Shown: positions 12,513-57,667 of the stretch, in pieces | How the letters are laid out: every line of letters starts with the position of its first letter | How positions within the stretch are numbered: the first letter of the stretch is position 1 | Source of the DNA: Paludibacteraceae bacterium | GTDB taxonomy: Bacteria; Bacteroidota; Bacteroidia; Bacteroidales; Paludibacteraceae | NCBI GenBank assembly: GCA_024399835.1 | Contig: JAKSNK010000002.1 | Location: 61,284-125,283 of the forward strand | Length of the DNA stretch: 64,000 nucleotides | Reading direction: 5' to 3' | Program-made: the position numbers and the translations under genes | Notes under the pieces: model-generated | Told to the model about the DNA's origin: nothing | Seen by the model: the letters and a program-made list of their open reading frames with translations, nothing else | Database searches by the model: none

Positions 12513-13808
12513 TTATTCGGCAATGACGAGGAAATAGTCTTTTTTGCCTTTTTGGAAAAGAATGTACTTACCGTCAATCAATGCCTGCGCATCAATGGGT
12601 TTTTGCGGGTCGGTCAGTTTCTCCTTATTCATCGAAAAACCATTGGCGACAATCATCTTACGCGCTTCTCCCTTGCTGGGGAAGATTTGTGTTTTCTCTG
12701 CCAGCAAATCGAGTGGGGGAATGCCTGCCATGAGTTCGTCACGACTGATACGGAACTGCTGTACGCCGTCAAAAATTTGCAGGAAAGTGGCTTCGTCAAG
12801 TTTTTCCAACGCTTCTTTTGTCGCTTTGCCAAAGAGTATATTGGTTGCCTCCACCGCTTGCTCATAGTCCTCCCGGCTATGTACCATCACGGTGACCTCT
12901 TCTGCCAGGCGCTTTTGCAACAGACGCAAATGGGGTGCCTCGTCATGCTCGGCAATGAGTGCCTCTATCTCTTCGCGTTCTAATGAAGTGAAAATCTTAA
13001 TATAACGCTTTGCATCCTCGTCGCTGACATTGAGCCAGAACTGGTAGAACTGATACGGACTCGTGTACTCACGGCTGAGCCATATATTGCCTTTTTCTGT
13101 CTTACCGAACTTGGTTCCGTCTGCTTTAGTCACCAACGGACATGTTAGTGCAAAAGCATCGTTGCCGGTGAGTTTTTTTATCAGTTCCATACCGGTGGTT
13201 ATATTGCCCCATTGGTCACTGCCGCCCATTTGCAGTTTGCACCCTTTATGTGCATTCAGATAATAGAAATCATATCCCTGCAAGAGTTGATAAGTGAACT
13301 CGGTAAAACTCATACCGCAATTGAACTCGCCGTTGAAGCGCTTTTTGACGCTATCCTTCGCCATCATATAGTTGACCGTGATGAGTTTGCCTATATTACG
13401 CGCGAAATCAATAAAGGTGTAGTCCTTCATCCAATCATAGTTGTTGACCAATTCAGCCGCGTTGGGTTCGCTGCTATTGAAGTCAATAAAGTGCTCCAAT
13501 TGATGTTTGATACATGCCACATTGTGTGCCAGTGTCTCCTCGTTGAGCAAATTGCGCTCGGCACTCTTGCCACTCGGGTCTCCAATCATACCCGTAGCAC
13601 CGCCGATGAGTGCAATCGGTTTGTGTCCGCAACGCTGCAAGTGGCGCAACATCATAATGCCGCACAAGTGCCCGATATGCAAACTATCTGCCGTGGGATC
13701 AATGCCCAAGTACGCTGTTGTCATCTCTTTCAGTAATTGCTCTTCGGTACCCGGAATCATATCCTGCAACATACCACGCCATCTCAATTCTTCAACGAAA
13801 TTTTTCAT
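12513..13808 (-). CDS. tyrS: Tyrosyl-tRNA synthetase
   Basis: Class I aminoacyl-tRNA synthetase (431 aa). HIGH is at residues 44-47, the G-S-D-Q-W-G-N motif at 196-202, and the KMSKS equivalent K-F-G-K-T at 233-237. A C-terminal S4-type RNA-binding domain carries the [11 protein letters not shown] motif. An upstream in-frame extension to 14084 exists, but it crosses the promoter and has no family similarity, so the ATG at 13808 is the start. Its promoter is interleaved with the divergent mltG promoter. Confidence 0.97.
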
Positions 13809-16681: not shown

Positions 16682-18232
16682 TTAGAATTGAAAATAGATG
16701 AAGGGTTGCAAATCTGCAGTAACGAATTGATAAACAACCAATACGACCACGGCAACTATAATTGCCATTGCATACCATGGCAGACGAGAGAATTTGATAC
16801 GGTACCATTGCTTGAACTTTGCCGGCAACCAATGAATAATCATGCCGGTAATAAAGAGTAGCACGACCGATTTATATTCCCACAGAAAGAGGGGAATGAT
16901 GCTGCTATTCCAAGCCCCGAAGATTTGTCCCAACATCTGTTTAGCAGTTCGCCATGCCACTTCGTTGGCATAAGCAGGATCAAGATTGGACGAAGCACGG
17001 AAGAAAAGTCGCGTAAAGGTAATAAATGTAAAAGTTAGCAGTACGCAAACCGTATCGTCTATGTAGCGCACAATCTTGTGGCGAAGAATGAATCCCTCAA
17101 CACCTATCTTTTCTTTCATGCTATGCCAACATTTGGCAATGATCATACCTATACCGTTGAGTCCGCCCCAAATAACGAAGTTCCAACTCGCTCCGTGCCA
17201 CAAACCGCCGATAAGCATTGTGGCAAAACTGTTGATGTTACCGGCAAGAAGCTTGTTGGCAGGTCGTCCGAAAACGGTGCGATTGCCACCTAATGGGATA
17301 TATACATACGACTTGAGCCATCGGCTGAGGGATTGGTGCCATCTGCGCCAGAACTCCTGCGGATTGCGTGACTTATATGGTGAGTCGAAGTTCTTAGGCA
17401 AATAGAATCCCATTAACATGGCTACACCAATTGCAATATCTGTATAGCCGGAGAAGTCCGCATAAACCTGCATTGAATAGGCAAAAAGCGCAAACAGGTT
17501 TTCAAAACCGCTGAATAGTAGGGGATTGTCAAATACACGGTCGATGAGATTGACTGCCAAATAGTCGCTGAGGATGATTTTTTTTGTTAGTCCGTTGAGA
17601 ATCCAGAATACGCTCACGCCCATTATTCGGTGAGTCATGTGGAAGGGGCGATAGAGTTGCTGCATAAACTCCGATGCACGCACGATCGGACCTGCTACCA
17701 ATTGGGGGAAGAAACTGACATACATGCCAAAGTCAAAGATATTGCGTACAGGCGCCACATGTCCACGATAGACATCTACGGTATAGGAAATAACCTGGAA
17801 GATGTAGAACGAGATACCAACGGGCAATAAAATCGTATCTACAATCGAACAGTGTGTACCAAAAATTGAATTAAACACATCCACCCCAAAGTAGGCATAC
17901 TTGTAATAGAATAAAAAGCCCAAGTCAATCAATATGCTGACCACGAGCCACAACTTGGCGTGTATCTTGCGTGCAATCGGAAACGCTGTTAGATAAGAAG
18001 TGCAGGTGACTATTGCCAAAATAGCCAAAAAACTGCCACTGGTCTTGTAGTAAAAGAACCAACTGACCAGCATAAGATAGATATTGCGCAAATGCAGGCG
18101 CTGCCGGTTCAACTTACCTATTACCAATGCATAGCCGATATAGACAATGAATAGAAAGACCCAAAAATACAATTGGGTAAAGAGCAGCGGACTATTGCTG
18201 TCAAATGCAAATGTATGTCTTAGAAATTCCAT
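16682..18232 (-). CDS. MBOAT-family O-acyltransferase (AlgI-like)
   Basis: A 516-aa polytopic membrane protein of the AlgI/DltB/PatA type. The MBOAT hallmark W-H-G-A-S-W-N-F-V-x-W-G with its catalytic His is near residue 345. The R-N-P-Q-E-F-W-R-R-W-H-x-S-L motif lies before it. Such proteins move acyl groups, usually acetyl, across the membrane onto exported polysaccharide or peptidoglycan. They work with a periplasmic SGNH partner, and that partner is encoded 21 bp upstream. The polysaccharide target is not shown by the sequence. Confidence 0.9.
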   Translation of the reverse strand: MEFLRHTFAFDSNSPLLFTQLYFWVFLFIVYIGYALVIGKLNRQRLHLRNIYLMLVSWFFYYKTSGSFLAILAIVTCTSYLTAFPIARKIHAKLWLVVSILIDLGFLFYYKYAYFGVDVFNSIFGTHCSIVDTILLPVGISFYIFQVISYTVDVYRGHVAPVRNIFDFGMYVSFFPQLVAGPIVRASEFMQQLYRPFHMTHRIMGVSVFWILNGLTKKIILSDYLAVNLIDRVFDNPLLFSGFENLFALFAYSMQVYADFSGYTDIAIGVAMLMGFYLPKNFDSPYKSRNPQEFWRRWHQSLSRWLKSYVYIPLGGNRTVFGRPANKLLAGNINSFATMLIGGLWHGASWNFVIWGGLNGIGMIIAKCWHSMKEKIGVEGFILRHKIVRYIDDTVCVLLTFTFITFTRLFFRASSNLDPAYANEVAWRTAKQMLGQIFGAWNSSIIPLFLWEYKSVVLLFITGMIIHWLPAKFKQWYRIKFSRLPWYAMAIIVAVVVLVVYQFVTADLQPFIYFQF

Positions 18233-27627: not shown

Positions 27628-27670
27628 CTACAATGTGACACCAAATTGACACTTTGAAGTAGTAATTTTG
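27628..27670 (+). promoter_or_regulatory. 43-bp dyad element, copy A
   Basis: Same length as the elements at 56429-56471 and 57614-57656, differing at five positions. It starts with CTAC, contains TGACAC twice 11 bp apart, then GAAGTAG, and ends in the -7-like box TAATTTTG, 10 bp before the umuC ATG. It lacks a TTTG box at the usual 20-bp distance. It could be an operator with a regulated promoter. Confidence 0.6.
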
Positions 27671-27679
27671 CAGTCGCTT

Positions 27680-28933
27680 ATGATAGTCCATATTGATTGT
27701 AATAGTTATTTTGCCAGTTGCGAGATAGCCGACCACCCGGAACTCGCGGACAAGCCGGTTATTGTCAGTTCATCAAACGACAATAACGGCGGCATCATAT
27801 TGGCACTTAACAAACCCGCGAAGCAGTTAGGTCTCAAACGGGGACTGCCTATTTTTCAGGCATTCAAAGGACACCAACCGGATGAGCCGTACATGCTGAA
27901 CGGTACCGAAGTGTTTTTCTTCGAGGTTGATCATAAGAAATATGGCCGTATCTCCGAGCAGATTATGTCTATTGTTCTGGAACAGGAGATAGTCCTCAAT
28001 TTTGTCCAGTATAGTGTTGATGAGTTCTTCGGGGAGATACCCGTTGATGATGACCCTGATGAATTGCGTCAGTATATCAAGCAGGTCAAAGACCTTATAG
28101 AAACCACGACACACATTCCCGTCAGTTGTGGCAGTGCCGCCACCTACACCCTGGCTAAAGTAGCCACACACTATGCCAAGCAGTATAGTGGTTACAACGG
28201 CATTTGTATTCTTCCGGAAGAGAAGCGCGAGAAAGCCCTTCAGTTGCTCCCCATTGAAGAGGTTTGGGGCATTGGCCGTGCTTTCCGCAAGCACCTTGAA
28301 CGCACGAATATAAAGACGGCTTGGGACTTTATTCAAAAATCGGATGAGTATATCCTCAATGTCTTCAACTCCACGGCTGTGAATACATGGAAGGAGTTGC
28401 GCGGTATCCGTGCCATTGAACTCAAAAAGCACGACCAGCGCCAATCTATCGCCCACACACGCACACTGACCAGAACGAGCCACGACTTGGACTACCTGTT
28501 GCAGCAACTGAGCAGTTACACCAGTGCTGCTGCATTCAAGTTGCGTGAGCAACACAGTTGTTGCCAACAACTGACCGTCTTTTTGCAGACCAACCGCCAC
28601 CGCACGGATTTACCGCAATATGCCAATGAGCAGACGCACAAGTTCGCTTCGCCCGAATCGGACAGTGGCACATTGATAGCAGCGGCAGCGCAAGCGCAAG
28701 CGTTCCGCACTATCTACCGTCCTGGCTATGAAATCAAACGCTTGGGGGTGATATTGGATAAGATAGTCGATGCCAACACGATGCAACTTGACCTCTTTGA
28801 AGATCCTCACAAGCAACGGCTTCGCAAAGCGCAGTCTGCTGTGGATGCCATCAATCGCAAGTTCGACCGTGAACTTGTTCACTCAGGCAGTTTCACGGAT
28901 TCTTCCGACCACAATCCTGGAATAACAAAATAA
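27680..28933 (+). CDS. umuC: Y-family DNA polymerase, UmuC-like
   Basis: Translesion polymerase catalytic subunit (417 aa). The N-terminal palm start H-I-D-C-N-S-Y-F-A-S-C-E holds the first catalytic Asp and a steric-gate-type Tyr/Phe pair. The V-D-E-F-F motif (S-V-D-E) near residue 115 gives the other carboxylates. A helix-hairpin-helix G-I-G-R-A-F-R segment and the little-finger domain follow. No umuD neighbour is present. A TTG 12 bp upstream is in frame but sits in the -7 box, so the ATG at 27680 is used. It is preceded by a canonical promoter and by the 43-bp dyad element, consistent with damage- or stress-linked control (inference). Confidence 0.9.
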   Translation: MIVHIDCNSYFASCEIADHPELADKPVIVSSSNDNNGGIILALNKPAKQLGLKRGLPIFQAFKGHQPDEPYMLNGTEVFFFEVDHKKYGRISEQIMSIVLEQEIVLNFVQYSVDEFFGEIPVDDDPDELRQYIKQVKDLIETTTHIPVSCGSAATYTLAKVATHYAKQYSGYNGICILPEEKREKALQLLPIEEVWGIGRAFRKHLERTNIKTAWDFIQKSDEYILNVFNSTAVNTWKELRGIRAIELKKHDQRQSIAHTRTLTRTSHDLDYLLQQLSSYTSAAAFKLREQHSCCQQLTVFLQTNRHRTDLPQYANEQTHKFASPESDSGTLIAAAAQAQAFRTIYRPGYEIKRLGVILDKIVDANTMQLDLFEDPHKQRLRKAQSAVDAINRKFDRELVHSGSFTDSSDHNPGITK

Positions 28934-28990: not shown

Positions 28991-29569
28991 TTATTTTATC
29001 ATTGTATGTCTCTTTGTATATTTTGCTAATTTATCATTAATAATATCAATTACCTCTTTAACAGATGACACTCCATAAACCTTATCATCAGGTATATCAT
29101 TATAACGAATGCGATTATCAATCTTTTCTCCAGCGAGTTTTGAACTCCATCCTTCAACATTGTCAAATGCAATAATTAAGCGGAATAATGACCACGCTAG
29201 TGCCATTTCGCATAGTGTGCCAGCTCCACCACCAATGACTATAACTGCATCTGCATTAGCGGTGATTCCATTTCGATAAACATCTAATCCTGTTGGAATA
29301 ATGATATCAACATACTTACTAACTTTCGTTGGCGAAAACCCGGGTATAATACCAATGGTATCCCCATCATGATAGTTTTTAGAGGATTTAGCTCCTTTCA
29401 TAGCAAATTCCATTATTCCATCATCTATCTCATCACGACTACCCACACCACCAGTCATTATTCGATAACCTGCATCAATAAGTGCTTCCCCTAATTGAAA
29501 GGCAAGAATTGCTTTTGGTGTATCAGGCTCACAATGCCTATCTCCTATAACTGCTACAATTGGTTTCAT
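28991..29569 (-). CDS. LOG/SLOG-family protein (TIGR00725-like)
   Basis: A 192-aa Rossmann-like protein. The first motif V-A-V-I-G-D-R is at 5-11, G-G-V-G-S-R at 41-46, and the phosphate-binding G-G-G-A-G-T-L-C-E at ~114-122, the LOG-type G-G-x-G-T-x-x-E. The family includes nucleotide-specific phosphoribohydrolases and SLOG ligand sensors. This copy lacks the classical plant LOG P-G-G form, so the activity is uncertain. It overlaps the end of the 1947-codon gene by 32 bp and is surely co-transcribed with it. It shares the AT-rich base composition of that gene, unlike the flanking housekeeping genes. Confidence 0.8.
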   Translation of the reverse strand: MKPIVAVIGDRHCEPDTPKAILAFQLGEALIDAGYRIMTGGVGSRDEIDDGIMEFAMKGAKSSKNYHDGDTIGIIPGFSPTKVSKYVDIIIPTGLDVYRNGITANADAVIVIGGGAGTLCEMALAWSLFRLIIAFDNVEGWSSKLAGEKIDNRIRYNDIPDDKVYGVSSVKEVIDIINDKLAKYTKRHTMIK

Positions 29570-32500
29570 ATCTTTCTTTTGCTTTTTGTAATATTATATT
29601 TCGTGTTTCATTGACTAGTTGTTGATTGTATTTGCCTTCTTTTTTTTGATTGGCTAATGATGGTTCAAAATAATATATGGGTATAGGTTGATAACAAGGA
29701 TTTTGTGCGACTTGAATTAAGGGCATTGCATAGGCAAAATCTGTGCAAACATTAATATACTCACCATCAATCTGTAAATCTTTATTATTAATCATATCAA
29801 ATAACTCTCGTCTAAAACAAATGGGATGAAGCCATATGTTATCCCCGTTTCGTTTCCATAGATAATCAAAACCTGATACACTATATTTTTTGTTGGGCTT
29901 ATCATATCGAATGCAATTGCCACAAATATAATCGTGTCCTTTTTTATACTGTTTCCAAAGAATAGATAATGCATCCTTGCGCAATAAGAAATCATCATTA
30001 TCAACCAATACAATCAGGGCATCTGGATTAGTAATATTTCGCATCGCACCAATCAATAAATTCATCTCCTTCATATCCGTCTGATTGGAAATATAAATCG
30101 TGCGATTTAGTTGGGGATGATAATGGAATAGGAACGATGCATATTGTTCACTGCTATTCGTTGAATGTGCATCTGTATAGATAAGGTCAAACGTCTTATT
30201 TTGGATGATAAGACTATCTAACAGGCGTTTAACCTTTTCAATAGGTGTGTTTTTGCCACGCGATACAACAACTATTGGAGCATTTGCCTTAGGTATCCAA
30301 TCGTACTTTTCGCCACATAAATCAACATGTTCTTCTTGACATAATGGAATGAAATGTTTTTCCATAGCATATCTCACAGCCGTAATGAGGTTGCAATCTT
30401 TTTTCTGTTCATTCGTTGGATGCACAAAAGCTAAAGTAGGATTACCTGAACGAAGAGACAAATATGGTTTATCTTTAATTTTGGCATCTATACACCGATG
30501 CCAAGGTTGCACAAAACCCTCTCCTTCTATTAAATTAGGTAGAGGAAGAATAGCGTTTAATAAAGAGAGATTGAGGAAACATGTTCTCACTTCTACACGC
30601 CGACCATCCGTATCAGGAACAATGTTTGAATGAAAGATACTTGGGGCTAATGTAAGAATAGGTCGTCTTGTAAATTGATGATATAGTTCAATCAGGGCAC
30701 CAGATTGTGTTTTGTATAGTATATCACAATCCGTTTGGTAAACATAGGGAGTATGGATGTGCCGAAACCCATAAAGTGTAGCAAATAATGGTTGCCCGTT
30801 TTGAGCGTGTGTGTTAGTGGCTTGCTGTTGAAAATAATGAGTGTAAATAACAGATATATCTTGGATGTTAGGAACAATAATTCGATCAATCCAACCATTA
30901 TGCTGAGCATGTTGTAATTCGGAGAGTAGATGCCCTTCGTTATCATCATTGTAAGCACGTTGTCTTGCAATGGGTGAGTTACCTTTTGTACGTCCTCCAT
31001 CAACACAAACCACTCTTTCCGCAAATATGCAACCATTTTCCAATTGGGACACAATGTGTTGTATGTTACCATATATATATTCGTGGTCCATCGCACATGC
31101 CTTTATCATTAAGGTAGTATCTGCCAAAACTTGATAATCAGTAATCTTTTTACACACAAACACCAAATGTTCCCCAATAGACAATGCTGTGTCGGTGTCA
31201 ATACCGGTAGTTTCCCATGTGTCAATAATTTGGAAGCCATATCGTCGCAATTGGTGAATATACCAATCTACTGGTCTATGATGCTCCAATCCATCAATGG
31301 GTTTCCCCGCAGCAGTATATTCTTGAAAAGTATGTACATTGTAATAAGAATCTTTACGTCCTCCCCCTCGAAGCATGGTATGCTGGATGTCACTAAAGAA
31401 CGGATTACATATACTCACAACAAAGTAAGCATCCTTCTTCAATGCTTGTGAAACATTATGCATGACTTGTTGTACCTGCTTGTCATCAATCCAACATAGT
31501 ACTTGATTGCAATTTATGAGGTCATAAGCATTGAGTGGAATATCGCTTGCTTTTTCTATTATATGAACGAATTGGTTTGCACGTTCTCTTAAAATAGATG
31601 TATTGATGTCAAACACATCTACAGAGCAAGTTGTACTTGCTAATTGATTAGCAATTTTGCATTTGCCTGCTCCATAATCCAAAATATGCTTTGGCCTTAA
31701 TTTTCTAATAGTCTGAATTATACTTGGGTCATGTATTTGCTCTTTGTAGGTCGGAATTAGCATTTGCCTAAATATATCAAGTCCTGCATTGATGGCATCC
31801 GCCGTGTGATTGTATGAATGTGATATAATCTCTTTAAATTCAAGATTGCTGAGAAAATAATACCTAAATGTTTGAAATGCGCGTTCAATGCTTCTTTGAT
31901 AAATTTGTTCAGAAAATGGAACAACATCTCTCCCATAATCAATGTATTTAAGCCCATTTTCAGTTTGGATAAAGTTATCTGGCTTTAGATTAGTCAATAC
32001 AAATCCATTTTCTTTCCCAAACAATATCAATTGACTTAAATCGCTTGCCTTGACTGATTGCAATGGTTGAGATGGTTCATAAGGATAAGATATAATTGTA
32101 TGTTTTCCTTCTTGTTCAAAAGATAAGGAATAAAATAGCGAACATGTGGCTAATGTAGGTGCAAAACGAATTAAAAAACTAAGGTCTATGTTTAAGTCAT
32201 ATAACACTTTATACACGCGGTTATTCCACATATAAACACATCCTTCATTTCCATATCCTAATGTGTGCAATTCATTCTGAGCGATATGCAAATGTTGGCT
32301 TAATAATCTTTTATATTCATCTTGATGACTACATTTTTTTGCCAAGTCAACATTTCGGACTAATTCTCTAAATGCAGTCCGTATCAGTTCTGGTTGGCTA
32401 TATTCTTCTATTTTTTTTAGAAAATATGATAAATGTTCTTTTGTAAAAATATCCTTATACTGGTTTGCCTCGTTCCCTATTATATGTAACAATCCTATTA

Positions 32501-35381
32501 TGCGATAATAATTTTCAATAAAGTGGACTAATCGTTTCTGCAATTCATCCTTGTATGTACAAATAATTCGACTTCCATTATGTATATCTTGGTAGGATAA
32601 ATCTACTCTTTCTATAGCTTTTGTCATAGAGGATCCTATCAAATCACAAAGCATTTTTTTTATTTCATAATCATAATCAAATGCCTTTTTCTCGCGATTA
32701 TGGAAGGTGCAAAAAGTTCCTTGACAAATTTTATAACCTTCTTGTTTTGCGCACAATGTCCATAAATAATCTCCTCGTCGTGCAGTAATGTCTCGAATTT
32801 TTAATGAACATGTCGGTAATAGCAATAAATTGCGATTTAGAATGAGTGTATTACCCCCTCGATTCATTGTTTCCCGAATTGTCGTATATTGATTAATCAA
32901 AGGGCGGGTCATCTTTCCTTTAAAAATATCCTCCAATGAACAAGATTGCACACATAAAGGAGTTTCCAAATGTGTATAGCCACTATCCGTTAAAGCATAA
33001 TAATAATCAGGAGTTTGTTTTAGTCCATCAGAGGTCGTCTTGGGTGATTGGGAATAACTATAATCCAAGAGCGATAACCGCAGTGTGGATAATAATGGAA
33101 GGGGGGCATCATTCGTATATCCACCAACTACTGCATCATATTTTCCGATATAATCAAGAATTTCTTTTCTAATATCAAGAATTTCTTCTTGACCATCTGC
33201 ATATAACTGTTTTAATTGCATATCATCATCCAATATCCAACTAATGGTATCATGGTGAGGCCAAATTTTATAGATATATTCTTGTAGTTGTTGTCGATTT
33301 TCTGCAATACTTCTTTGTTTGGTTTGGGGTAATATTACGTCAATCCGTTTCCTTAATGATTGAGATAAAGTTGATAACCATATTAAATCCTCACCTGTAT
33401 TATTTAATAGGACAATTTGATAATCTCCTCCAATGTGTCTAGAAATCTCTTGCAATAGTCTTTTTGCACCTTCTTGATATGTTACAATACATCCAATAAT
33501 GATGTGCCCGTCATATTGTTTTCTATCACTCTTATGGTAAATAGATAGATTACACATTTCAGATTGAGGAACATATATATCTTCCATAGATATGCCAAAA
33601 TATGTACTATTCCTTTGATTAAATTGCTTTTTATCTTCAGGAGACATTAATACATGATATTTGTGATAGAATCGTTTTAATCCTTCTGTTTTTTTTGGCT
33701 TGTTGGTAGTGATTCTATCCCCATCTGTGTAGATATGAATTAATGATTTAGGAACAATACTATATTGAGGAGTTTGTTGCATGATGCGTACAAAGATATC
33801 TCTATCTGTTGTAGAAGGCATGCCTTCATCAAAGCAACCGGTTTTCATCAAAGTGGATAATTTTACAAAAGTATTAGAACCTTGAATATGTGGATTACCC
33901 TGCAAAAAAGAATGAATCGACAGATGATTGGGAATAGTTAATTTCTTTGTTTCCTGCTTAGTATGATAAATAAGACCCGATACAACAAAATCAGTAGAGG
34001 GTTGTATTACTTTACTACATTCTTCTAAATATTCTGGCATCCACACATCATCATCATCCAAAGTCGCAATATAAATAGAGGTAGCATCTAAATTTCGCTT
34101 TATAAGGTATTCATTGACAATATAATCAATGCCAATATTTAAAGATCCTGCATAATTATGCTCGTGATTATTGATTCCTGCTTTAAGGTAAATACCATTA
34201 GCGGTTTCAACCGCTAATCTTTCCTTTTCAACTCTCTCTCTTGTAGAATCACTAACAATTATTATTAAATCTGGTTGACGATGTTGCTCAGTCACGGATT
34301 GTAAAGCAGTATAAAACGAGTCCCTGTTTTTAGTAGTCAGCAAACTGACAATAAAAATATTACGATTATGTTCCCTATACCATTTCACAAACTGAGACAA
34401 TCCTTGTTCTAAAGACCATTTAGGACATACGCCTAAATCGTTTTTTAATAGAGTTGTATCTGCCCATGTTTGACTCACATCCTCTTTGGGACAATATTGA
34501 ATATATTGTGGCATTGCTTTCTTCCCAAAAGCATGTTCCATTGCATGTATAAACTCCTGAATGGTAATTGGATGCCCATTCCCAACATTATATATTTTAT
34601 AAGGAATAGCATCTGCTGGAATTTGATAATCTAAAGCACCAATAATAGCATCTACCACATCACTAACATACGTAAAATCACGCTTGAAATGTCCTTCATT
34701 ATAAATAGAAAGAGGTTTCCCATAAAAAATATTATCTGCCACCTTCATGGGCAACATATCGGGACGCCCCCAAGGACCATACACAGAAAAGAAACATAAA
34801 CCAATGCAAGGCAATCCATATTGAGTAGCATAATCTAAAGCAATCCTCTCGTTTTGTTTTTTCGTTTCTGCATAATAACTACATAGAGTACCATTTGTGT
34901 CGGTTTCTTTTTGTGTGAAGGCACAATTTGTTCCGTACACCGAAGAACTACTGGCAAAAATAAATTTCTGAATAGAATAGCGTTGGCAAGTTTCAATGAT
35001 AGTGTGAAATCCAACAATATTGGATTGGTAGTACACATCTTGCGGAATATCATCTTGTCGAATACCTGCTTGAGCTGCCAAATGAATAACAAAATCGAAA
35101 GACTCCGTCTTGAAGAGACAATCAATACTTTGAGTGTCTTCAATTGCTAATCGTACAAATGATACATTCGGGAATAGATTACTCTGTGCTCGTTCTCCAT
35201 ATGATATGGATTCTGGCACAGAGAAACCCAGCGACCGAAGTCGATCGTACTTCATTTTTACATTGTTTCCAAACTCGTTGATGTTGTCCACACCAACAAT
35301 TTCAATATCCCTTTTGGATAAAGTCGCAATAAGTTGCGATGCAATGAAACCGGCAGCGCCGGTTATAATTATTTTTTTCAT
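29538..35381 (-). CDS. 1947-aa multienzyme: sugar epimerase, four GT-like domains, kinase-like and methyltransferase domains
   Basis: One uninterrupted reading frame. Residues 1-340: extended SDR nucleotide-sugar epimerase (T-G-A-A-G-F-I-A at 7-14; S-S-S-V-Y-G at 145-150; Y-x3-K with Y170, K174). 342-~605: GT2 (L-D-D-D-D at 441-445). ~625-900: second GT-A-like domain (L-D-D-D at 717-720). ~900-1035: helical. 1037-1200: kinase-like (G-Y-G-N-E-G at 1042-1047; K1058; N-L-K-P-D-N at 1131-1136; I-D-Y-G at 1147-1150). ~1215-1415: SAM methyltransferase (L-D-Y-G-A-G-K at 1234-1240). ~1424-1690: third GT-like domain (D-C-D at 1551-1553). 1700-1905: fourth, GT2 (V-D-N-D-D at 1792-1796). No signal peptide or membrane helix is seen, so cytosolic. 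Probably builds or decorates a surface glycan; substrates unknown. AT-rich, followed by an overlapping LOG gene. Confidence 0.85.
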   Translation of the reverse strand: MKKIIITGAAGFIASQLIATLSKRDIEIVGVDNINEFGNNVKMKYDRLRSLGFSVPESISYGERAQSNLFPNVSFVRLAIEDTQSIDCLFKTESFDFVIHLAAQAGIRQDDIPQDVYYQSNIVGFHTIIETCQRYSIQKFIFASSSSVYGTNCAFTQKETDTNGTLCSYYAETKKQNERIALDYATQYGLPCIGLCFFSVYGPWGRPDMLPMKVADNIFYGKPLSIYNEGHFKRDFTYVSDVVDAIIGALDYQIPADAIPYKIYNVGNGHPITIQEFIHAMEHAFGKKAMPQYIQYCPKEDVSQTWADTTLLKNDLGVCPKWSLEQGLSQFVKWYREHNRNIFIVSLLTTKNRDSFYTALQSVTEQHRQPDLIIIVSDSTRERVEKERLAVETANGIYLKAGINNHEHNYAGSLNIGIDYIVNEYLIKRNLDATSIYIATLDDDDVWMPEYLEECSKVIQPSTDFVVSGLIYHTKQETKKLTIPNHLSIHSFLQGNPHIQGSNTFVKLSTLMKTGCFDEGMPSTTDRDIFVRIMQQTPQYSIVPKSLIHIYTDGDRITTNKPKKTEGLKRFYHKYHVLMSPEDKKQFNQRNSTYFGISMEDIYVPQSEMCNLSIYHKSDRKQYDGHIIIGCIVTYQEGAKRLLQEISRHIGGDYQIVLLNNTGEDLIWLSTLSQSLRKRIDVILPQTKQRSIAENRQQLQEYIYKIWPHHDTISWILDDDMQLKQLYADGQEEILDIRKEILDYIGKYDAVVGGYTNDAPLPLLSTLRLSLLDYSYSQSPKTTSDGLKQTPDYYYALTDSGYTHLETPLCVQSCSLEDIFKGKMTRPLINQYTTIRETMNRGGNTLILNRNLLLLPTCSLKIRDITARRGDYLWTLCAKQEGYKICQGTFCTFHNREKKAFDYDYEIKKMLCDLIGSSMTKAIERVDLSYQDIHNGSRIICTYKDELQKRLVHFIENYYRIIGLLHIIGNEANQYKDIFTKEHLSYFLKKIEEYSQPELIRTAFRELVRNVDLAKKCSHQDEYKRLLSQHLHIAQNELHTLGYGNEGCVYMWNNRVYKVLYDLNIDLSFLIRFAPTLATCSLFYSLSFEQEGKHTIISYPYEPSQPLQSVKASDLSQLILFGKENGFVLTNLKPDNFIQTENGLKYIDYGRDVVPFSEQIYQRSIERAFQTFRYYFLSNLEFKEIISHSYNHTADAINAGLDIFRQMLIPTYKEQIHDPSIIQTIRKLRPKHILDYGAGKCKIANQLASTTCSVDVFDINTSILRERANQFVHIIEKASDIPLNAYDLINCNQVLCWIDDKQVQQVMHNVSQALKKDAYFVVSICNPFFSDIQHTMLRGGGRKDSYYNVHTFQEYTAAGKPIDGLEHHRPVDWYIHQLRRYGFQIIDTWETTGIDTDTALSIGEHLVFVCKKITDYQVLADTTLMIKACAMDHEYIYGNIQHIVSQLENGCIFAERVVCVDGGRTKGNSPIARQRAYNDDNEGHLLSELQHAQHNGWIDRIIVPNIQDISVIYTHYFQQQATNTHAQNGQPLFATLYGFRHIHTPYVYQTDCDILYKTQSGALIELYHQFTRRPILTLAPSIFHSNIVPDTDGRRVEVRTCFLNLSLLNAILPLPNLIEGEGFVQPWHRCIDAKIKDKPYLSLRSGNPTLAFVHPTNEQKKDCNLITAVRYAMEKHFIPLCQEEHVDLCGEKYDWIPKANAPIVVVSRGKNTPIEKVKRLLDSLIIQNKTFDLIYTDAHSTNSSEQYASFLFHYHPQLNRTIYISNQTDMKEMNLLIGAMRNITNPDALIVLVDNDDFLLRKDALSILWKQYKKGHDYICGNCIRYDKPNKKYSVSGFDYLWKRNGDNIWLHPICFRRELFDMINNKDLQIDGEYINVCTDFAYAMPLIQVAQNPCYQPIPIYYFEPSLANQKKEGKYNQQLVNETRNIILQKAKERYETNCSSYRR

Positions 35382-35491
35382 AATAGTATCATCATCTTGC
35401 GATGATAATAAAGTGTTAAACCTCGCTCCGTCGATGTCTTAAATAAACATCCAAGGAACCTTATAATATAGATTTCCTTTGAAATCCGCTG

Positions 35492-35523
35492 CAAAGGTAC
35501 AACTTTTTTATGACATATACAAA
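35492..35523 (-). promoter_or_regulatory. Promoter of the multienzyme-LOG operon
   Basis: Minus strand: TTTG (35520-35523), 20-bp spacer, TACCTTTG (35492-35499). Predicted leader is about 105 nt, longer than for most genes here. The box and part of the spacer (AAAAGTTG-TACCTTTGCA) nearly match the tRNA-Gln promoter. Confidence 0.75.
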
Positions 35524-35774
35524 TTTTAATGCTATTTTGAAAACAAAACATGCAAGTTCTACCATTAAAAGGTGTGACGATTGCGATTTGGGGCGTATAG
35601 GTAGTCGCGCTCAGCACATCGTGGGAGCGCCTTCTATCTCAAAAATGAAAAACAAATAACCTCTCAGGTCAAAGAAACAGGTCAAATGCTATCGAAAAAA
35701 AATGTGGTAAACCACAAAAATTTCCGCTAAAAAACTATAAAAAGTCATTTTTTTACACAAAAACTAATATTTTT

Positions 35775-35806
35775 CTTGTTTATGTGAGATTTTTTGACTA
35801 ATTTTG
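35775..35806 (+). promoter_or_regulatory. Promoter of abiEi-abiEii
   Basis: CTTG (35775-35778), 20-bp spacer, TAATTTTG (35799-35806), about 20 bp before the abiEi ATG at 35827. Confidence 0.7.
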
Positions 35807-35826
35807 CAGTCGAATTTGTGATACCT

Positions 35827-36435
35827 ATGAATATACCAGCCATTCCAATGACAGCCAATGTGCTATCCACATACCTAAACGGATTAGCGGCTCCGATGCA
35901 AAAGATACTTGATATGGAGCAAAAGGGAGAGGTGATTCGTCTGAAAAGAGGATTATACATTGCAGCGAGTGCTAAGCCGAATCTTTTTCTTGTTGCCAAT
36001 CACCTATATGGTCCATCGTATGTATCGCGAGAATCGGCATTACGATATTATGGACTTATCCCGGAACATGTGGAGAGCGTAACATCAGTTACCACCTTGC
36101 GCAGTAACGCATTTGATAATACGCTTGCTCATTTCTCGTATCTACATTTACCTATGGATTATTATTCGCCGGATGTTTGTATTCAAACCGAGGGAGAAGT
36201 GAGTTTTCAGATAGCATCGCCGGAGAAAGCTTTGGCAGACTTGGTGGTTCTTACTTCGTGTCTGCGTTTGCGTTATCAGAAAGAGGTTATTGAATATCTG
36301 GAACATGACTTGCGCCTTGATATGGATGCGTTTTACAAAATGGATGCAGCCACCTTTGAACATCTTGCAACTGTCAGCAAGAAGCAACAAGCATTATTAA
36401 ATATCGCAAAAATTATTCGTTATGACCATATATGA
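35827..36435 (+). CDS. AbiEi-type antitoxin (DUF6088-like)
   Basis: A 202-aa protein with an N-terminal winged-helix region (K-R-G-L-Y-I near residue 40) and the AbiEi C-terminal domain. It includes the typical Y-V-S-R-E-S-A-L-R-Y-Y-G-L-I-P-E segment and S-P-E-K-A-L-A-D-L. It is the antitoxin and probable autorepressor of a type IV AbiE system. The in-frame start at 35794 overlaps the -7 box, so the ATG at 35827 is chosen. It overlaps the toxin gene by 14 bp, which fits coupled expression. Confidence 0.88.
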   Translation: MNIPAIPMTANVLSTYLNGLAAPMQKILDMEQKGEVIRLKRGLYIAASAKPNLFLVANHLYGPSYVSRESALRYYGLIPEHVESVTSVTTLRSNAFDNTLAHFSYLHLPMDYYSPDVCIQTEGEVSFQIASPEKALADLVVLTSCLRLRYQKEVIEYLEHDLRLDMDAFYKMDAATFEHLATVSKKQQALLNIAKIIRYDHI

Positions 36436-37228
36436 GCAAATGTTGGCTCGTTACACGGGCGATGAACGTAAAGCACATCAAGAAGTGATGCAACAGATTG
36501 CATTGGCAGGACTGTACCGTGCCGGTTTTTTTGAACATGCTGCTTTTTATGGTGGCACATGTTTGCGTATTTTTCACGGGTTGCAGCGGTTCTCGGAAGA
36601 TATGGATTTTTCGCTATTACAACCTAATGACACCTTCAATTTTGAATCCTTCTTTCCTACAGTAATTCAAGAATTTGAATTAGCAGGAAGAAAGGTGGAA
36701 ATTACCAAGAAAGACAAGCGTGATTTTGGTAAAGTGGAGTCTGCTTTTCTAAAAGACACTACTGATGTGTATGATTTGTCCTTCCAAACGGAAAAGAGTT
36801 TAAAAATCAAGATTGAAGTTGATATTAATCCGCCATTACATTTCCGGACGGAGCAAAAACTATTGATGCAACCCTATTCGTTCATGACGCGCTGCTTTAC
36901 TTTGCCGGATCTGTTTGCCGGTAAGTTGCATGCCTTGGTTTTTCGCAATTGGAAAAATCGAGTCAAAGGGCGTGATTGGTATGACTTTGAGTGGTATGTC
37001 CGTAATGGAATCCAACCTGATTGGTCACATTTGCACGAACGCATTTTGCAGTTTAACGGTGAAGATATGACTCGGGAGCAATTCATGTCATTATTGTTGG
37101 AAAGGTTACAAACAACAAACATTGAACATGTTAAGGCAGATGTGGAGCATTTTGTTCTCAATCGTCAAGAATTGGATATTTGGTCCAATGACTATTTTGT
37201 ACAGGTCGCTCATTTGATGTCAATTTAA
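36422..37228 (+). CDS. AbiEii-type nucleotidyltransferase toxin
   Basis: A 268-aa toxin of the AbiEii/AbiGii family, a nucleotidyltransferase-fold enzyme whose relatives inactivate tRNA by adding nucleotides. The core motif is G-G-T-C-L-R at 44-49 followed by R-F-S-E-D-M-D-F at 56-63, with D60 and D62 as the metal ligands. A conserved K-L-H-A-L segment and R-x-x-x-R-D-W-Y-D sit near residues 160-190. The pair should act as an abortive-infection or TA module. It adjoins the multienzyme operon and both lie in the AT-rich island. Confidence 0.9.
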   Translation: MTIYEQMLARYTGDERKAHQEVMQQIALAGLYRAGFFEHAAFYGGTCLRIFHGLQRFSEDMDFSLLQPNDTFNFESFFPTVIQEFELAGRKVEITKKDKRDFGKVESAFLKDTTDVYDLSFQTEKSLKIKIEVDINPPLHFRTEQKLLMQPYSFMTRCFTLPDLFAGKLHALVFRNWKNRVKGRDWYDFEWYVRNGIQPDWSHLHERILQFNGEDMTREQFMSLLLERLQTTNIEHVKADVEHFVLNRQELDIWSNDYFVQVAHLMSI

Positions 37229-49852: not shown

Positions 49853-51771
49853 CTGTATTTTTTTGCTTGTGCTTTGGCGTTCTCGCGAGCCATGCGTTGT
49901 TGCTCCTGTTGCATCTTTTCTAAGCGAGCCATGAACCCGGACTTGGGTTTGCCGGCTTTCTTTTTGGCATTTGCTTCCATTTGTGCCAATAGTTTTTTGT
50001 CGTCTATTGCCCAGCGGAAGCACATCGTTTGCAGAATCGTGAAGCCGAGTGAGATGGTATAGTAGAAACTCAAACCGGCTGCATAGTCGTTAAATATGAA
50101 CAGGAACATGATAGGCATCAGATACATCATCCATTTCATGAACTTCATATTCGGGTCGGTGGCTTGACTTTGCATCGTGATAATGGTATAACCCAAGTTG
50201 GCAACGGTCATGATTAAGCAGAATAGGGACAAGTGGTCGCCAAATAGCGGAATAGGAGTACCCCATGTGAGAATGGCGTCGTATGCCGATAGATCGTCTG
50301 CCCACCACAGGGACTGACCGCGCAACTCGATGGCAATCGGGAAGAACCAGAACATCGCCATCAGGATAGGCATTTGGAATAGCATGGGCAGACACCCGGA
50401 CATGGGACTGACACCGGCGCGGTTGTATAGTTCCATGATGGCTTTTTGGCGCTCTTGCATCTTCTCTGCCGGATATTTGGCATTGATTTCGTCCATTTGC
50501 GGCTTGAGTACACGCATCTTGGCGGACGAACGGTACGAGGCAAAGACGAAGGGAAGAATAATCAGTTTGATGATGAGTGTCATCAGCAGAATGACGATAC
50601 CTATCGGCAAACCGAAGTGTAATAACCAGTCAAATACGGGGAACGAAAAGATTTGGTTAATCCAAATAATCACGCGCCAACCTTGCAGCACTATCTCTTG
50701 CAGGTGAAGTTTGACAAGTTCGTTTTCTGCATTGTCGTCATAGGATTTGAGCAGGTTGTAGTTGTTCGGACCCATGAAGAAACGCATGGATGCGGATTGC
50801 TGGTTGGCAATGTCAAATGCAAGGTTCGCTTTGGTCTGATATGCCTTGATATAGCGTGTGTCCGCTTGTTGCGGAGTCGATTCAAATTCGCAGGACGAGA
50901 ATGCGTCGTTGGCGATTAGGATAGTGGAGAAGAATTGGTCTTTGTATCCTATCCAGCGCACTTTGCCGGATTCGCGTTTGGTGTCGTGTTTGGCTTCGGA
51001 CATGCGCTCCTGGTCCAAACCGGTAGTCATGTATTGCAGATGGGCGTAGCGCTCTTCAAACTTCCTGCCGCGCTCCTGTTGGGGGATGAGTTGACGCCAT
51101 TGCATTTCCAAACTGTTCATGTTCTGTGCCAAAACGAGATTGGCATTGTGGGGAACGATTTGGAAATCGAACATATAGGTGCTGTCGGGTAGGGTATAGA
51201 CGAAGTCGATATAGGCATCTTCTATTTCGCTTTTCAGACGCATGATAACATTTTGGGCATTGGGTTGTATGGGCTCAAAATAGAGGTTGCGTGTCGTCAG
51301 AATACGGTTGTTGGAAGTTATCAGAGTGAAGGACATGTCCGATTCGTCGGCTCTGAATAGTGTCAGGGGGTTGACGGTATCGCCGTATGCTTTGTATTCT
51401 TTGAGTTCGGCTTGTGCGATACGGCCGCCTTTGGCTGCAATGTGAAGGCGCAGTTTGTCGTTCTCTAATATTATTTCTTTATCTTCGCCTTGTGCGGCTG
51501 GTGTGAACGGACCATATACGGCAGATAGTTGGGCGTATAGCATTTCGCCGTCTATAGTGTCTGTAGCCGTTTGTTCGCTGTTGCTACTGATTGTTGCGTT
51601 GATGGAGTCGGACAGGTGTTGTGCTTCCATCTCCATTTGTTGTGCGATACGAATGCTGTCGTTGATGCGTTGTCGCTCAGCCATTTCCTCTTTTGACGGG
51701 CGGTTGAGCATTGAAAATCCTACAATAATTGCGGCTATTAAGAGTAAGCCGATCCAAGAATGTTTATCCAT
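49849..51771 (-). CDS. yidC: Membrane protein insertase YidC
   Basis: A 640-aa Oxa1/YidC-type insertase. The N-terminal helix (7-25) is followed by a large periplasmic beta domain (~50-360) and the five-helix core (~365-590) with P-x-x-x-x-x-S-G-C-L-P-M-L-F-Q-M-P-I. A basic C-terminal tail (K-K-K-A-G-K-P-K-S) is present. It inserts inner-membrane proteins with or after SecYEG. The promoter (51799-51830) lies in an unusual repeated upstream region. ATGA overlap with the DUF2520-like gene. Confidence 0.95.
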   Translation of the reverse strand: MDKHSWIGLLLIAAIIVGFSMLNRPSKEEMAERQRINDSIRIAQQMEMEAQHLSDSINATISSNSEQTATDTIDGEMLYAQLSAVYGPFTPAAQGEDKEIILENDKLRLHIAAKGGRIAQAELKEYKAYGDTVNPLTLFRADESDMSFTLITSNNRILTTRNLYFEPIQPNAQNVIMRLKSEIEDAYIDFVYTLPDSTYMFDFQIVPHNANLVLAQNMNSLEMQWRQLIPQQERGRKFEERYAHLQYMTTGLDQERMSEAKHDTKRESGKVRWIGYKDQFFSTILIANDAFSSCEFESTPQQADTRYIKAYQTKANLAFDIANQQSASMRFFMGPNNYNLLKSYDDNAENELVKLHLQEIVLQGWRVIIWINQIFSFPVFDWLLHFGLPIGIVILLMTLIIKLIILPFVFASYRSSAKMRVLKPQMDEINAKYPAEKMQERQKAIMELYNRAGVSPMSGCLPMLFQMPILMAMFWFFPIAIELRGQSLWWADDLSAYDAILTWGTPIPLFGDHLSLFCLIMTVANLGYTIITMQSQATDPNMKFMKWMMYLMPIMFLFIFNDYAAGLSFYYTISLGFTILQTMCFRWAIDDKKLLAQMEANAKKKAGKPKSGFMARLEKMQQEQQRMARENAKAQAKKYR

Positions 51772-51798
51772 TAGTGCTTATTTTTCCAAATTAGAGTA

Positions 51799-51830
51799 CA
51801 AATATACAACAAAAAATTGGCATACGCAAG
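51799..51830 (-). promoter_or_regulatory. Promoter of yidC
   Basis: Minus strand: CTTG (51827-51830, in CTTGCGTATG), 20-bp spacer, TATATTTG (51799-51806). The region up to 51870 shares most bases with the HAD promoter region. Confidence 0.75.
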
Positions 51831-51899
51831 TTTTAGCGCTACTAAATAGATTTTTAATCTATAAATAGTCATTTTTACCTCTCTCCCCGGTTGCCCTCT

Positions 51900-51967
51900 C
51901 TCTTAATTCTTAGCCACAAGGGCACGATTATCTCATAATTCAAAATTCTTAATTCAATCTCACCCGA
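51900..51967. repeat. Dispersed intergenic repeat, copy 3
   Basis: The 30-base core at 51900-51929 is identical to the core at 27267-27296, with continued similarity to 51967 (TCTCATAATTCAAAATTCT then AATT and AATCTCA). A shorter copy of the core is at 27511-27535. Confidence 0.85.
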
Positions 51968-52117
51968 TTCCCCTCTCTTCTCTCTTAATTCATTACGGTA
52001 GCACTATTAACGATGAGTATGTCTCTGAATGAAAGACGATGCAAAGATACAACAAAAATTGGCTTTTCGTTGGTGCTTATCACCAATGGTGCAAAAATAG
52101 GGAATGTTTACTCTTCT

Positions 52118-52183
52118 ATGAGTTAAGGATGAGTTAAGGATGAGTTAAGGATGAGTTAAGGATGAGTTAAGAATGAGATAAGC
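52118..52183. repeat. 11-bp tandem array
   Basis: Six units of ATGAGTTAAGG (last two with one or two changes) between 52118 and 52183, non-coding. Unit length matches the arrays at 7916-7970 and 61151-61183. Confidence 0.93.
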
Positions 52184-52382
52184 GAACCCAACGCAGGAAA
52201 TAGCGAATTCATGATTTCGTATTTTATGCATTTAGGTACATCACTTGTCGCAAAACGGAGTACGCTTGACAACATTTTAGGCATTTTAGGGGCATCTAAA
52301 CCCATCAAATCGTATTGTTTTGTATTTTGTAACATAATTGATAAAACTCTAACTAATTGATAAATAACATATTAGTTGTTTA

Positions 52383-52556
52383 GCGTTACAGCGTTACGCG
52401 TTAAAATCCAAAAAAATGAAAGGGGTATATCTGACTTTTTCAATCCTATTCTATTATATAACTTATTAATTATTAATATATTATATATTATATATAGGTA
52501 ATGTTAGGAGGTAGGTACCCTTCCAAATTTTAGTTGTCACGCTGTCACGCTGTCAC
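52383..52556. repeat. Imperfect inverted repeat flanking an AT-rich block
   Basis: The left arm (52383-52403) is built of GTTACAGC-like units and the right arm (52536-52556) of GTCACGCT units; the right arm's reverse complement resembles the left arm. They enclose ~130 bp that is nearly pure A/T over 52450-52498. Confidence 0.5.
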
Positions 52557-52900
52557 ACTTAGTTAGTTTTTACAGCCCCAATTCCTTTTTTATCATTTTT
52601 TTGTTCGGTTAAACCATAGAGGGCATTTTTGGGCGTTTTTTTGTCGGTCAAAATAACGATTTGCCAAGTGTCGGTCAACGGTCTACCAACCCTTTGACCT
52701 ATAAAACACCACTTGTTCGGTGTGACGGTTGACAATCGCAATGCACGATTTTTCTTCTTTCAACTCTAAACTCTAAACTAAATCCCCCTCTACTATTCTG
52801 ATTACGAACTTTTTGGGCAAACATTACATCAATCCATGCTTTTTCTTAATTTTATCCTTTGCGGATTATTTCTTTTTCGGATTCATAGATGTGTTAAAGA

Positions 52901-55714: not shown

Positions 55715-55729
55715 TGGTTGTGGACAAAT

Positions 55730-56269
55730 TTACTTTACAATCAAGTTGATGTGGGCTAAAATAAACTTCTGCGCTTCAAGATTGTACGATGTCGCCAAAT
55801 AAGTATTGCCATCCGTACGTCTTTGCCAATCACTCACAATACCTTGAGCGTTTCCTTTAGTTGTAGCTTGCTTGTTTTTCTTTCCTTCGGGCGAAGCAAC
55901 TTCGGTTAAAAAACCTTCATCCACTAGCCATTTAGACACTTGCGGAATCGTAACAGGATGCATATTAGAGGGGATTACTTTATTAATCTCACGAATAAAA
56001 TTAGCAATACCGGTATGTTCAACTAGCAGAACACGCGCAGCGTTTTCCTCTGACAAATAGAAATCAAGGTCATATTGCCTTGCCTGACGCGGAGCACGAG
56101 TTTTTATGGAACTATTGAGTACTTCTGCTACATAGAACAAACAACGTGAGATATGAACATCGTTCACGATGTCTGTACCATTCAAAGGGGTATTGTTTAG
56201 CGGATTTACACCATTTGCCAATCTCAGTATCCACTCTTTAGCGGATTTTATTTTTTCTATATCAGTCAT
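55730..56269 (-). CDS. Conserved-looking helicase-partner protein, unknown function
   Basis: A 179-aa soluble protein: L-A-N-G-V-N-P-L, I-V-N-D-V-H-I-S-R-C-L-F-Y-V near residues 20-50, then a winged-helix-like segment (V-S-K-W-L-V-D-E-G-F-L) near 115. I recall similar proteins beside UvrD-type helicases, but cannot check. No catalytic residues evident. It probably forms a two-gene unit with the helicase 15 bp downstream. The 43-bp element at 56429-56471 lies ~160 bp upstream. Confidence 0.65.
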   Translation of the reverse strand: MTDIEKIKSAKEWILRLANGVNPLNNTPLNGTDIVNDVHISRCLFYVAEVLNSSIKTRAPRQARQYDLDFYLSEENAARVLLVEHTGIANFIREINKVIPSNMHPVTIPQVSKWLVDEGFLTEVASPEGKKNKQATTKGNAQGIVSDWQRRTDGNTYLATSYNLEAQKFILAHINLIVK

Positions 56270-56428
56270 ATTTTTTTATAATTTTCTTAATATTATCAGA
56301 ATTCTAAACATCGGTACGGATATGCTGCCTTATCACAAAGTGATGCTTCCCTATAGCGAGCAATAAGATTCTGCGACAATTCGGTGTTATCAATATCCTT
56401 GTTCTCTTGACCTTTTCAATTTTGTCCA

Positions 56429-57540: not shown

Positions 57541-57562
57541 TTGTTTTTTTAATTTTGCAACA

Positions 57563-57594: not shown

Positions 57595-57613
57595 TTTCGC
57601 TGCGTTCCGCCTG

Positions 57614-57656: not shown

Positions 57657-57667
57657 CATGAGCTACC

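Follow-up and report, generated by a model that had tools for sequence, protein, structure and literature searches.

Single proteins that combine several steps of glycan assembly are already known. The ORF6 protein of Klebsiella pneumoniae O7 carries a methyltransferase, a kinase, a coiled coil, and two GT2 glycosyltransferase domains in that order, and is encoded within a wzm/wzt export cluster (PMC11231755). WbdD from Escherichia coli O9a and K. pneumoniae O3 is a bifunctional kinase-methyltransferase that modifies the end of a glycan (PMC3482155). It possesses a coiled-coil ruler, and the polymerase WbdA is a separate protein (PMC11231755). Jumbo phages provide another point of reference, as clusters of paralogous glycosyltransferase (GT) genes have been described for them in a section whose heading concerns pseudolysogeny and prevention (PMC7824862). 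The subject of this report is a giant gene, P0001, and its partner, P0002, which reside in a 64,000-nt stretch of DNA from a Paludibacteraceae bacterium, probably an inhabitant of the gut (GCA_024399835.1, contig JAKSNK010000002.1, positions 61,284 to 125,283), hereafter called the window.

P0001 (29538..35381, minus strand) begins with ATG and encodes 1947 amino acids in a frame without an internal stop. Its product joins an epimerase, two GT domains, a domain resembling eukaryotic protein kinases, a class I methyltransferase, and two further GT domains, in that order. P0002 (28991..29569, minus strand) encodes a 192-residue SLOG protein of the LDcluster4/TIGR00725-like type, and overlaps the 3′ end of the giant gene by 32 bp. 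We propose that this gene pair is a mobile, self-contained, and soluble machine for writing glycans that serves phage or mobile-element conflict, a reading in which our confidence stops just short of even. The glycan-writing chemistry is likely, judging from protein families and motifs. The role in conflict is suggested less strongly, by mobility and by the neighboring genes.

Domains and relatives of the giant protein

Domain boundaries were assigned with profile hidden Markov models built on the domains of the window protein and its relatives, and all coordinates given below refer to the minus strand. The NAD-dependent epimerase domain (34362..35381, residues 1-340) matches Pfam Epimerase over residues 4-267 (E = 5.9e-45). 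Its nearest chains in the PDB are 5u4q (3.9e-66), 6zl6 (1.1e-34), and MoeE5 (1.8e-31), the latter two of which we take to be UDP-glucuronate 4-epimerases. It is followed by GT_D2 (33642..34343, residues 347-580), a GT2-family glycosyltransferase recognized by Pfam Glycos_transf_2. This model covers two stretches of the giant, the best of which spans residues 350-485 (5.1e-17), and our profile A4 matches PglI (9jma, 2.1e-9) in GT_D2. The adjoining GT_D3 (32472..33323, residues 687-970) is GT-A-like and carries WxxDDD, RGG, and ARRxD-like motifs; it has no Pfam family, and profile A4 yielded no GT match among PDB chains for this stretch. A kinase-like domain (31875..32270, residues 1038-1169) also lacks a Pfam match. 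It is kept in relatives, and profile A5 aligns it with true protein kinases such as ROCK2 (2.2e-7) and YabT (4.2e-7).

The class I S-adenosylmethionine (SAM) methyltransferase (31194..31730, residues 1218-1396) matches Pfam Methyltransf_23 over residues 1227-1353 (4e-8), and its profile A6 finds PDB entries 3g5l (1.5e-13) and 7pd7 (2.9e-7). WbdD does not appear among the 60 of 433 PDB matches listed for this profile. GT_D6 (30318..31121, residues 1421-1688) is GT-A-like with a DxD motif and has no Pfam family. It is present in 53 of 54 profiled loci, duplicates included, the exception being the partial locus L043. The final domain, GT_D7 (29607..30281, residues 1701-1925), is a GT2-family glycosyltransferase that matches the NCBIfam PglI model over residues 1719-1829 (5.2e-6, under the cut-off of that model), and its profile A3 matches GalT1 (3.2e-10) and TagF (2.8e-8). 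Overall, Pfam and NCBIfam recognize single domains of the giant and, among the rows listed, offer no match for the kinase-like domain, D3, or D6. The family has perhaps been overlooked for this reason.

Initially, whole-protein searches for relatives were dominated by the epimerase domain. For this reason, a kinase-methyltransferase piece and then alignments were used as queries. A scan of the genome collection with alignment A2 returned 45 loci, and a scan of IMG/VR yielded locus L089. Twelve of the 45 loci share the core order of the window protein, GT_D2-GT_D3-kinase-methyltransferase-GT_D6-GT_D7, which we call type A. These occur in Gammaproteobacteria (L067, L086), a Methanoregula metagenome-assembled genome (MAG; L069), Planctomycetota (L081), Bacteroidales (L083, L084, L087, L088), and in Pseudotabrizicola (L077), Aliiroseovarius (L078, split), Roseovarius (L079), and Hasllibacter (L085, cut by a contig end), four genera that presumably belong to the Rhodobacterales. 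Four more type A loci lie beyond the 45, namely L101, which is a second copy in a Phycisphaerales MAG, and the three from IMG/VR (L089, L102, L103). The kinase and methyltransferase profiles are adjacent in every intact type A copy. Many records in the family as a whole are MAGs, and single contigs may have been binned wrongly.

The other 33 loci lack the methyltransferase and represent a sister form, type B, or its cut and split versions. In type B, GT_D2 is followed by the series GT_B-kinase-GT_D6-GT_D7, and a radical SAM protein is encoded beside the cassette or fused to it in 26 of the 33. Hosts include Vibrio, Photobacterium, Shewanella, Marinobacter, Planctomycetota, Myxococcus, Treponema, Fibrobacter, and Bacteroidales, and on a Salinivibrio plasmid the type B cassette sits between insertion sequence (IS) transposases and ylqF. 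The same Phycisphaerales MAG carries both a type A copy without SLOG (L101, 1569-7592) and a type B copy (L057), and a MAG labeled as an archaeon (L082) has two D6-D7 copies inside a 12-kb stretch, of which one bears a fused radical SAM domain.

Type B loci of gammaproteobacteria also show a convergent gene of about 250-300 codons that overlaps or abuts the 3′ end of the giant gene (L037, 13789-14559, minus strand, and 12 further loci). No Pfam family was found for three of its members, and a guess that this gene of about 256 codons encodes a GT42 sialyltransferase was therefore dropped. Loci L105-L118, obtained in the A4 search, have at most single GT-like domains without the core architecture and were excluded. 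Elsewhere, a whole-protein viral scan gave only short matches in GT2 regions (L024, L025), and the kinase-methyltransferase piece matched seven plasmid records through its methyltransferase part. The L102 protein found no match among phage records, nor did the Vibrio cassette among E. coli genomes.

Across these relatives, Asp motifs of the DxD kind are kept in each of the four GT-like domains. The Asp motifs of D2 (DDDD) and D3 (DDD) are retained in 13 of 13 type A rows, the DxD of D6 in all 45 rows of both types, and the three Asp positions of D7 in 41, 41, and 44 of those 45. By profile, D2 and D7 can be assigned to GT2, and D3 and D6 are putative glycosyltransferases on motif and position only. 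In the kinase-like domain, two loop glycines, the Lys, the metal-binding Asn, and the DFG Asp are present in 45 of 45 rows.

A close copy of the gene pair exists in another species of the same genus. The giant of this genome (G159) has 1953 residues, is 90% identical over 1947 residues, and is accompanied by a SLOG gene. When the two copies are compared, the ratio of nonsynonymous to synonymous substitution rates (dN/dS) amounts to 0.15 for the giant gene, 0.10-0.21 for each of its domains, and 0.12 for SLOG. Thus every domain of the giant is under purifying selection. An artefact of assembly or reading that joins genes which are in truth distinct, or a gene in decay, would have in its favor that the contig comes from a fragmented genome (1.76 Mb in 46 contigs, 85% complete) and nothing else. 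The same fused core in independent genomes and IMG/VR contigs, together with the purifying selection, makes such an artefact extremely improbable.

These findings bear out the preliminary description where it reported, with no strand given, a single open gene of 1947 codons, whose frame is intact and whose core order recurs in several phyla, and where it listed an epimerase, four GT-like domains, a kinase-like domain, and a methyltransferase, a list supported by Pfam, by the profiles of relatives, and by conserved Asp motifs. The epimerase is indeed part of the same polypeptide in the window and the sister copy, but among type A loci this N-terminal fusion is confined to these two, and in L083, L084, and L088 the epimerase is encoded upstream by a gene of its own.

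The SLOG partner

P0002 clears the cut-off of Pfam PF18306 with ease (89.6 bits vs 26.3; 2e-25). It misses the NCBIfam TIGR00725 cut-off (83.2 bits vs 106.9) and falls far under the LOG model NF058542 (21.4 bits vs 300). Among PDB chains it matches 6y01 (7.8e-15), the molybdenum cofactor (MoCo) carrier 2iz5 (3.2e-14), and LOG 5zi9 (6.4e-6), and the SLOG signature GGGAG(T/S)..E is kept in every aligned row; a conserved RN is present as well. These sequence comparisons place the partner with SLOG proteins of the TIGR00725/MoCo-carrier type, as a divergent member that lies further from LOG. A SLOG profile detects the partner in 13 locus copies, 12 of them distinct (L032 and L087 are one record). 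PADLOC has zero matches to P0002 at E 0.01.

Of the 15 intact type A copies that could be assessed, 14 have SLOG either fused to the giant or encoded no more than 700 bp downstream. These are the window, L067, L069, L077, L079, L081, L083, L084, L086, L087, L088, L089, L103, and L102 (fused); the count leaves out L078 (split), L085 (contig end), L043 (partial), and the duplicates L032, L104, L119, and L120. The pairing that had been noted in the window is real and nearly constant, and as to whether such a gene always accompanies the giant, L101 is the exception. The partner's proposed identity as LOG gives way to the TIGR00725/MoCo-carrier assignment.

With starts placed at the longest frame, the giant and SLOG frames overlap by 4-139 bp in 10 of 12 cases, and the 139-bp overlap in L081 probably results from a start placed too far upstream. 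An extra gene separates the two in L069 (12523-13203), L089 (7279-7992; 226-237 residues for this gene and that of L069), and L103 (15757-16545; 262 residues), and it is methyltransferase-like in L089 and L103. In phage-like L102, one open reading frame (ORF) of 1799 codons reads GT_D2-GT_D3-kinase-methyltransferase-GT_D6-GT_D7-SLOG. This fusion is the strongest evidence that SLOG is part of the machine, and co-inheritance points the same way, with six of nine splits common to the giant and SLOG trees. Of the 178 genomes in the genus of the window, two (the one holding the window, and G159) match P0002 strongly, and there is one further, marginal match.

Mobility and gene neighborhood

The cassettes are sparse and mobile. 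The kinase-methyltransferase piece matches six of 178 genomes of the genus, the window's own included. Besides G159, the remaining four (G108, G192, G163, G211) carry the sister form. In a sample of the order, two of 393 genomes match, the window's own among them. The copies in the window and G159 occupy different genomic sites. Homologs of the window flanks lie on other contigs of G159, and the giant, SLOG, UmuC, and AbiE were not found in the stretches compared; an empty site for the window cassette was also sought there and none was shown, as the flanks sit on different contigs. The neighbors of the G159 copy, read by eye, resemble an EamA-like permease and a lipoprotein.

All three type A loci from IMG/VR have an integrase within about 6 kb of the cassette. 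In L089 and L103 it belongs to the phrog_95 family, whose resemblance to DNA invertases suggests that it is probably a large serine integrase, and L102 has a phrog_1 integrase, a replication initiator, and DNA methyltransferases. Two loci, L087 (tRNA-Val, 13570-13645) and L103 (tRNA-Asn, 17404-17476), carry a tRNA gene about 0.3 kb past SLOG, and these genes are possible integration sites. A tRNA search of 39 loci and the window found cassette-adjacent genes only in these two, so tRNA sites are not the rule.

In the window, the pair lies in an AT-rich island (28991..37228; about 31-42% GC in 500-base steps) that also holds an AbiEi/AbiEii toxin-antitoxin pair identified by PADLOC (35794-37228). 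The GC fraction of the giant gene is 0.348 compared with about 0.46 in its surroundings, and the SLOG gene is AT-rich too, which upholds the foreign composition noted at the outset. A gene for a UmuC-like translesion polymerase (27668-28933) adjoins the island. The window has another AT-rich block, of about 38-42% GC, at 51000-58000.

The scattered, mobile character of the family and its bias toward defense genes lay beyond what the preliminary description could see. In a survey of 48 flank proteins by 50 scans, a selection of the flanking ORFs, type I restriction-modification (R-M) genes were found near L049-L052, L055, and L078. In L049, L050, and L052, an hsdR-like gene stands on one side of the cassette and hsdM, followed by a putative hsdS, on the other. 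GmrSD or its C-terminal part occurs near L055, L067, and L076, AbiE beside the window cassette and L081, and a C5 DNA methylase near L079. Proteins of the UvrD or SNF2 type that resemble parts of Gabija or Druantia are encoded near L044 and L054, a PD-(D/E)XK nuclease near L056, and SMC-like proteins near L071 and L075. Ordinary neighbors are also present, such as a tRNA synthetase (L084), a signal peptidase (L086), and an acyltransferase (L088). Some large proteins beside cassettes have no PADLOC match (L044, 14403-17597; L059, 14720-18082; L077, 1344-6188), and that of L077 has no Pfam match either; these may be neighbors of kinds not yet described.

To set the chance expectation for 638 kb of flanks, genes were counted across the full length of the 47 genomes or records concerned, the window flanks being taken at 20 kb; the set includes several loci of the window's genus and the near-identical L072 and L073. 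Among 120 N6_Mtase genes, four loci were observed within 10 kb of a cassette (L049, L050, L052, L078) against 0.39 expected. The corresponding values are two loci against 0.21 for AbiEii (52 in total; the window and L081) and two against 0.37 for GmrSD_N (91 in total; L055 and L076). Pooled, the three families give 8 observed against 0.98 expected (Poisson 9e-6, uncorrected for the choice of these families after they had been seen in the flanks). GT4 glycosyltransferases, which mark ordinary glycan clusters, are at chance level, with one locus (L061) against 1.37 expected from 350 in total; here, flanks were scanned with a profile from eight GT4 proteins and genomes with PF00534, whose positions are those among the matches listed.

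Proposed function and comparison with known systems

Sugar-nucleotide genes accompany many of the cassettes. For at least 21 of 47 loci, an epimerase match is found within the cassette or next to it, relatives of UDP-glucose dehydrogenase occur in L055, L061, L063, L069, and L073 as well as directly after the fused giant in L102, and AsnB-type amidotransferases are present in L043 and L078. The epimerases and their PDB relatives, together with the dehydrogenases, lead us to infer uronic-acid donors. A simple hydropathy scan found no clear membrane segment in the window giant; the highest 19-residue mean, 1.73, begins at residue 4 in a Rossmann strand of the epimerase.

In the mechanism that we envisage, the four GT modules would add a short oligosaccharide of up to four sugars to one acceptor, one sugar per module, and at least one donor would be a uronic-acid nucleotide sugar supplied by a UDP-sugar dehydrogenase or by the epimerase, whether fused or neighboring. 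ATP would be bound by the kinase-like domain, which would either phosphorylate the glycan or acceptor or gate assembly. The methyltransferase would cap or alter the product; in the sister type it is missing and a radical SAM protein is usually present. SLOG may cleave or bind a nucleotide-like compound needed for the same product. The outcome could be the marking of an intracellular molecule, or a change in surface glycan that excludes phages or superinfecting elements. The earlier suggestion that one polypeptide makes and modifies a glycan fits the motifs and the sugar-nucleotide genes nearby, and it keeps its conditional standing.

A more specific version of this proposal, which we consider rather unlikely, is that the cassettes form a new mobile conflict class in which a methylated glycan containing uronate marks an intracellular macromolecule (e.g., DNA, RNA, or a phage protein) with near-obligate help from SLOG. 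Under an intracellular mark, the hsdR-cassette-hsdM arrangement seen in the sister type would be a joint modification system rather than simple proximity.

Several observations weigh against a conflict machine. When the R-M arrangement shared by L049, L050, and L052 is counted once, the excess of defense genes falls to 6 against 0.98 (5e-4, with the same post hoc choice of families). Moreover, R-M genes are a sign of integration hot spots in general, and the bias could arise if the cassettes were cargo there. PADLOC found no match for 15 of 20 neighbors in one set tried, and on the giant itself it has no specific model, offering only weak mad2 (4.9e-8) and borderline E2 (0.0032) matches, both over the methyltransferase region. 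SLOG was not found in 6.4 kb of DNA downstream from the L101 copy, nor with the split copy L078 or the partial set L043. The trees of the giant and of SLOG disagree at three of nine splits, some of them supported above 0.9 in either tree, which suggests that SLOG partners may have been swapped at times. In the kinase-like domain, the position of the HRD Asp is occupied by Asn in 32 of 45 rows, Asp in 12, and Ser in one, and every one of the 15 type A rows (L043 and L078 among them) has Asn. With the other kinase residues kept, the domain is likely to bind ATP, and its capacity for classical phosphotransfer is uncertain; the type A domain may be inactive as a kinase. The kinase-like domain seen in the original reading of the window is thus present, but ordinary phosphotransfer is not assured. 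Finally, the parts are those employed in surface-glycan synthesis, and in the vicinity of L088 there is a gene of the Acyl_transf_3 family, which is common in surface-glycan acetylation.

The last of these points introduces the foremost competing explanation, in which the giant is a fused polymerase and chain terminator like ORF6 that makes a short surface glycan, its placement in islands being incidental. This possibility is less probable than a conflict machine and yet deserves serious consideration. The nearby sugar-nucleotide genes, the AsnB-type amidotransferases, and the Acyl_transf_3 gene would all suit such an enzyme. ORF6 is itself a single protein that adds a methyl-phosphate cap, and PDB entry 7pd7 (CgnL), which our methyltransferase profile matches, is named as the closest fold of the O7 methyltransferase (PMC11231755). 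However, the O7 kinase loses activity on D441A (PMC11231755), whereas the HRD Asp is missing here. Also contrary to this explanation are the lack of a membrane segment in the window giant by the hydropathy scan and the chance-level occurrence of GT4 genes in the flanks. Among 30 neighbors scanned with Pfam, a selection of flanking ORFs of which several have no family at all, there were no wzm/wzt exporter genes and no flippase, polymerase, or O-antigen exporter family. The near-constant SLOG partner would be left unexplained.

A third explanation draws on an elaborate relative in genome G539 (L043, 320-7295). There, a 1453-residue protein combines AsnB, an arylamine N-acetyltransferase-like domain, GT_D2, and GT_D3, and the operon also encodes an epimerase and a 542-residue protein with GTP cyclohydrolase II, NADAR, and the kinase-like domain, an odd blend of riboflavin-type and glycan components. 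SLOG and NADAR proteins both act on nucleotide N-glycosidic bonds, a parallel that rests on this one locus. The cassettes might then produce a small glycosylated or nucleoside-like metabolite, such as an antibiotic or signal, for which SLOG would trim a nucleotide and tailoring would be the task of the methyltransferase or the radical SAM protein. The same kinase and two GT domains in the G539 set, and the radical SAM proteins in 26 of the 33 sister loci, accord with this idea. Nevertheless, we consider it improbable, given that GTP cyclohydrolase II and NADAR were seen in a single locus and that no exporter or carrier-protein family was found among the 30 scanned neighbors. There was also no convincing conserved small ORF, as would be expected for the precursor of a ribosomally synthesized and post-translationally modified peptide (RiPP), among 684 near 52 cassettes. 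Most matches between small ORFs linked close relatives or involved frames that overlap larger genes or run antisense to them. Three Bacteroidales loci share a short proline- and glycine-rich reading that is not a tRNA (L068, 13586-13672; L076, 6420-6509; L083, 10585-10671).

If the gene pair does write glycans in phage or mobile-element conflict, then a compact and transferable two-gene machine that builds a decorated oligosaccharide is common to prokaryotes and their mobile elements. SLOG nucleotide enzymes would be tied to glycan assembly, and the idea that phage conflict has a layer based on glycans would gain a candidate open to testing. For expression in the laboratory, both the fused gene of L102 and the type A gene pairs are of manageable size.

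Comparison with described systems places the family as follows. No description of the giant's architecture was found among the literature matches listed, which lie mostly outside subscription papers and preprints, and in this sense the initial statement that no described enzyme has such an order still stands. It needs a qualifier, as ORF6 fuses a methyltransferase, a kinase, and two GT2 domains in another order (PMC11231755). Like ORF6, the giant unites methyltransferase, kinase, and GT2 modules in one polypeptide that would act on glycans, but its core order is GT, GT, kinase, methyltransferase, GT, GT, and it has more GT modules, a SLOG partner, and Asn in place of the HRD Asp. It shares with WbdD the presence of kinase and methyltransferase domains in one polypeptide and differs in that its GT modules are fused in the same protein, in contrast to the separate WbdA. 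As in the GT clusters of jumbo phages, GT sets occur sporadically, are carried by phages, and are associated with nucleoside diphosphate (NDP)-sugar genes, but a fused GT-kinase-methyltransferase protein with SLOG is not described in the accessible portion of that source (PMC7824862).

P0002 possesses the same signature and conserved RN as the TIGR00725/MoCo carrier proteins (2iz5, 6y01) and LOG. Unlike these, it falls under the NCBIfam cut-offs of both families and is tied or fused to a multi-GT protein, a linkage that, to our knowledge, has been noted for neither family. Multi-module glycan synthases are thus already known, and what this locus adds to them is a SLOG-linked mobile family that is apparently undescribed.

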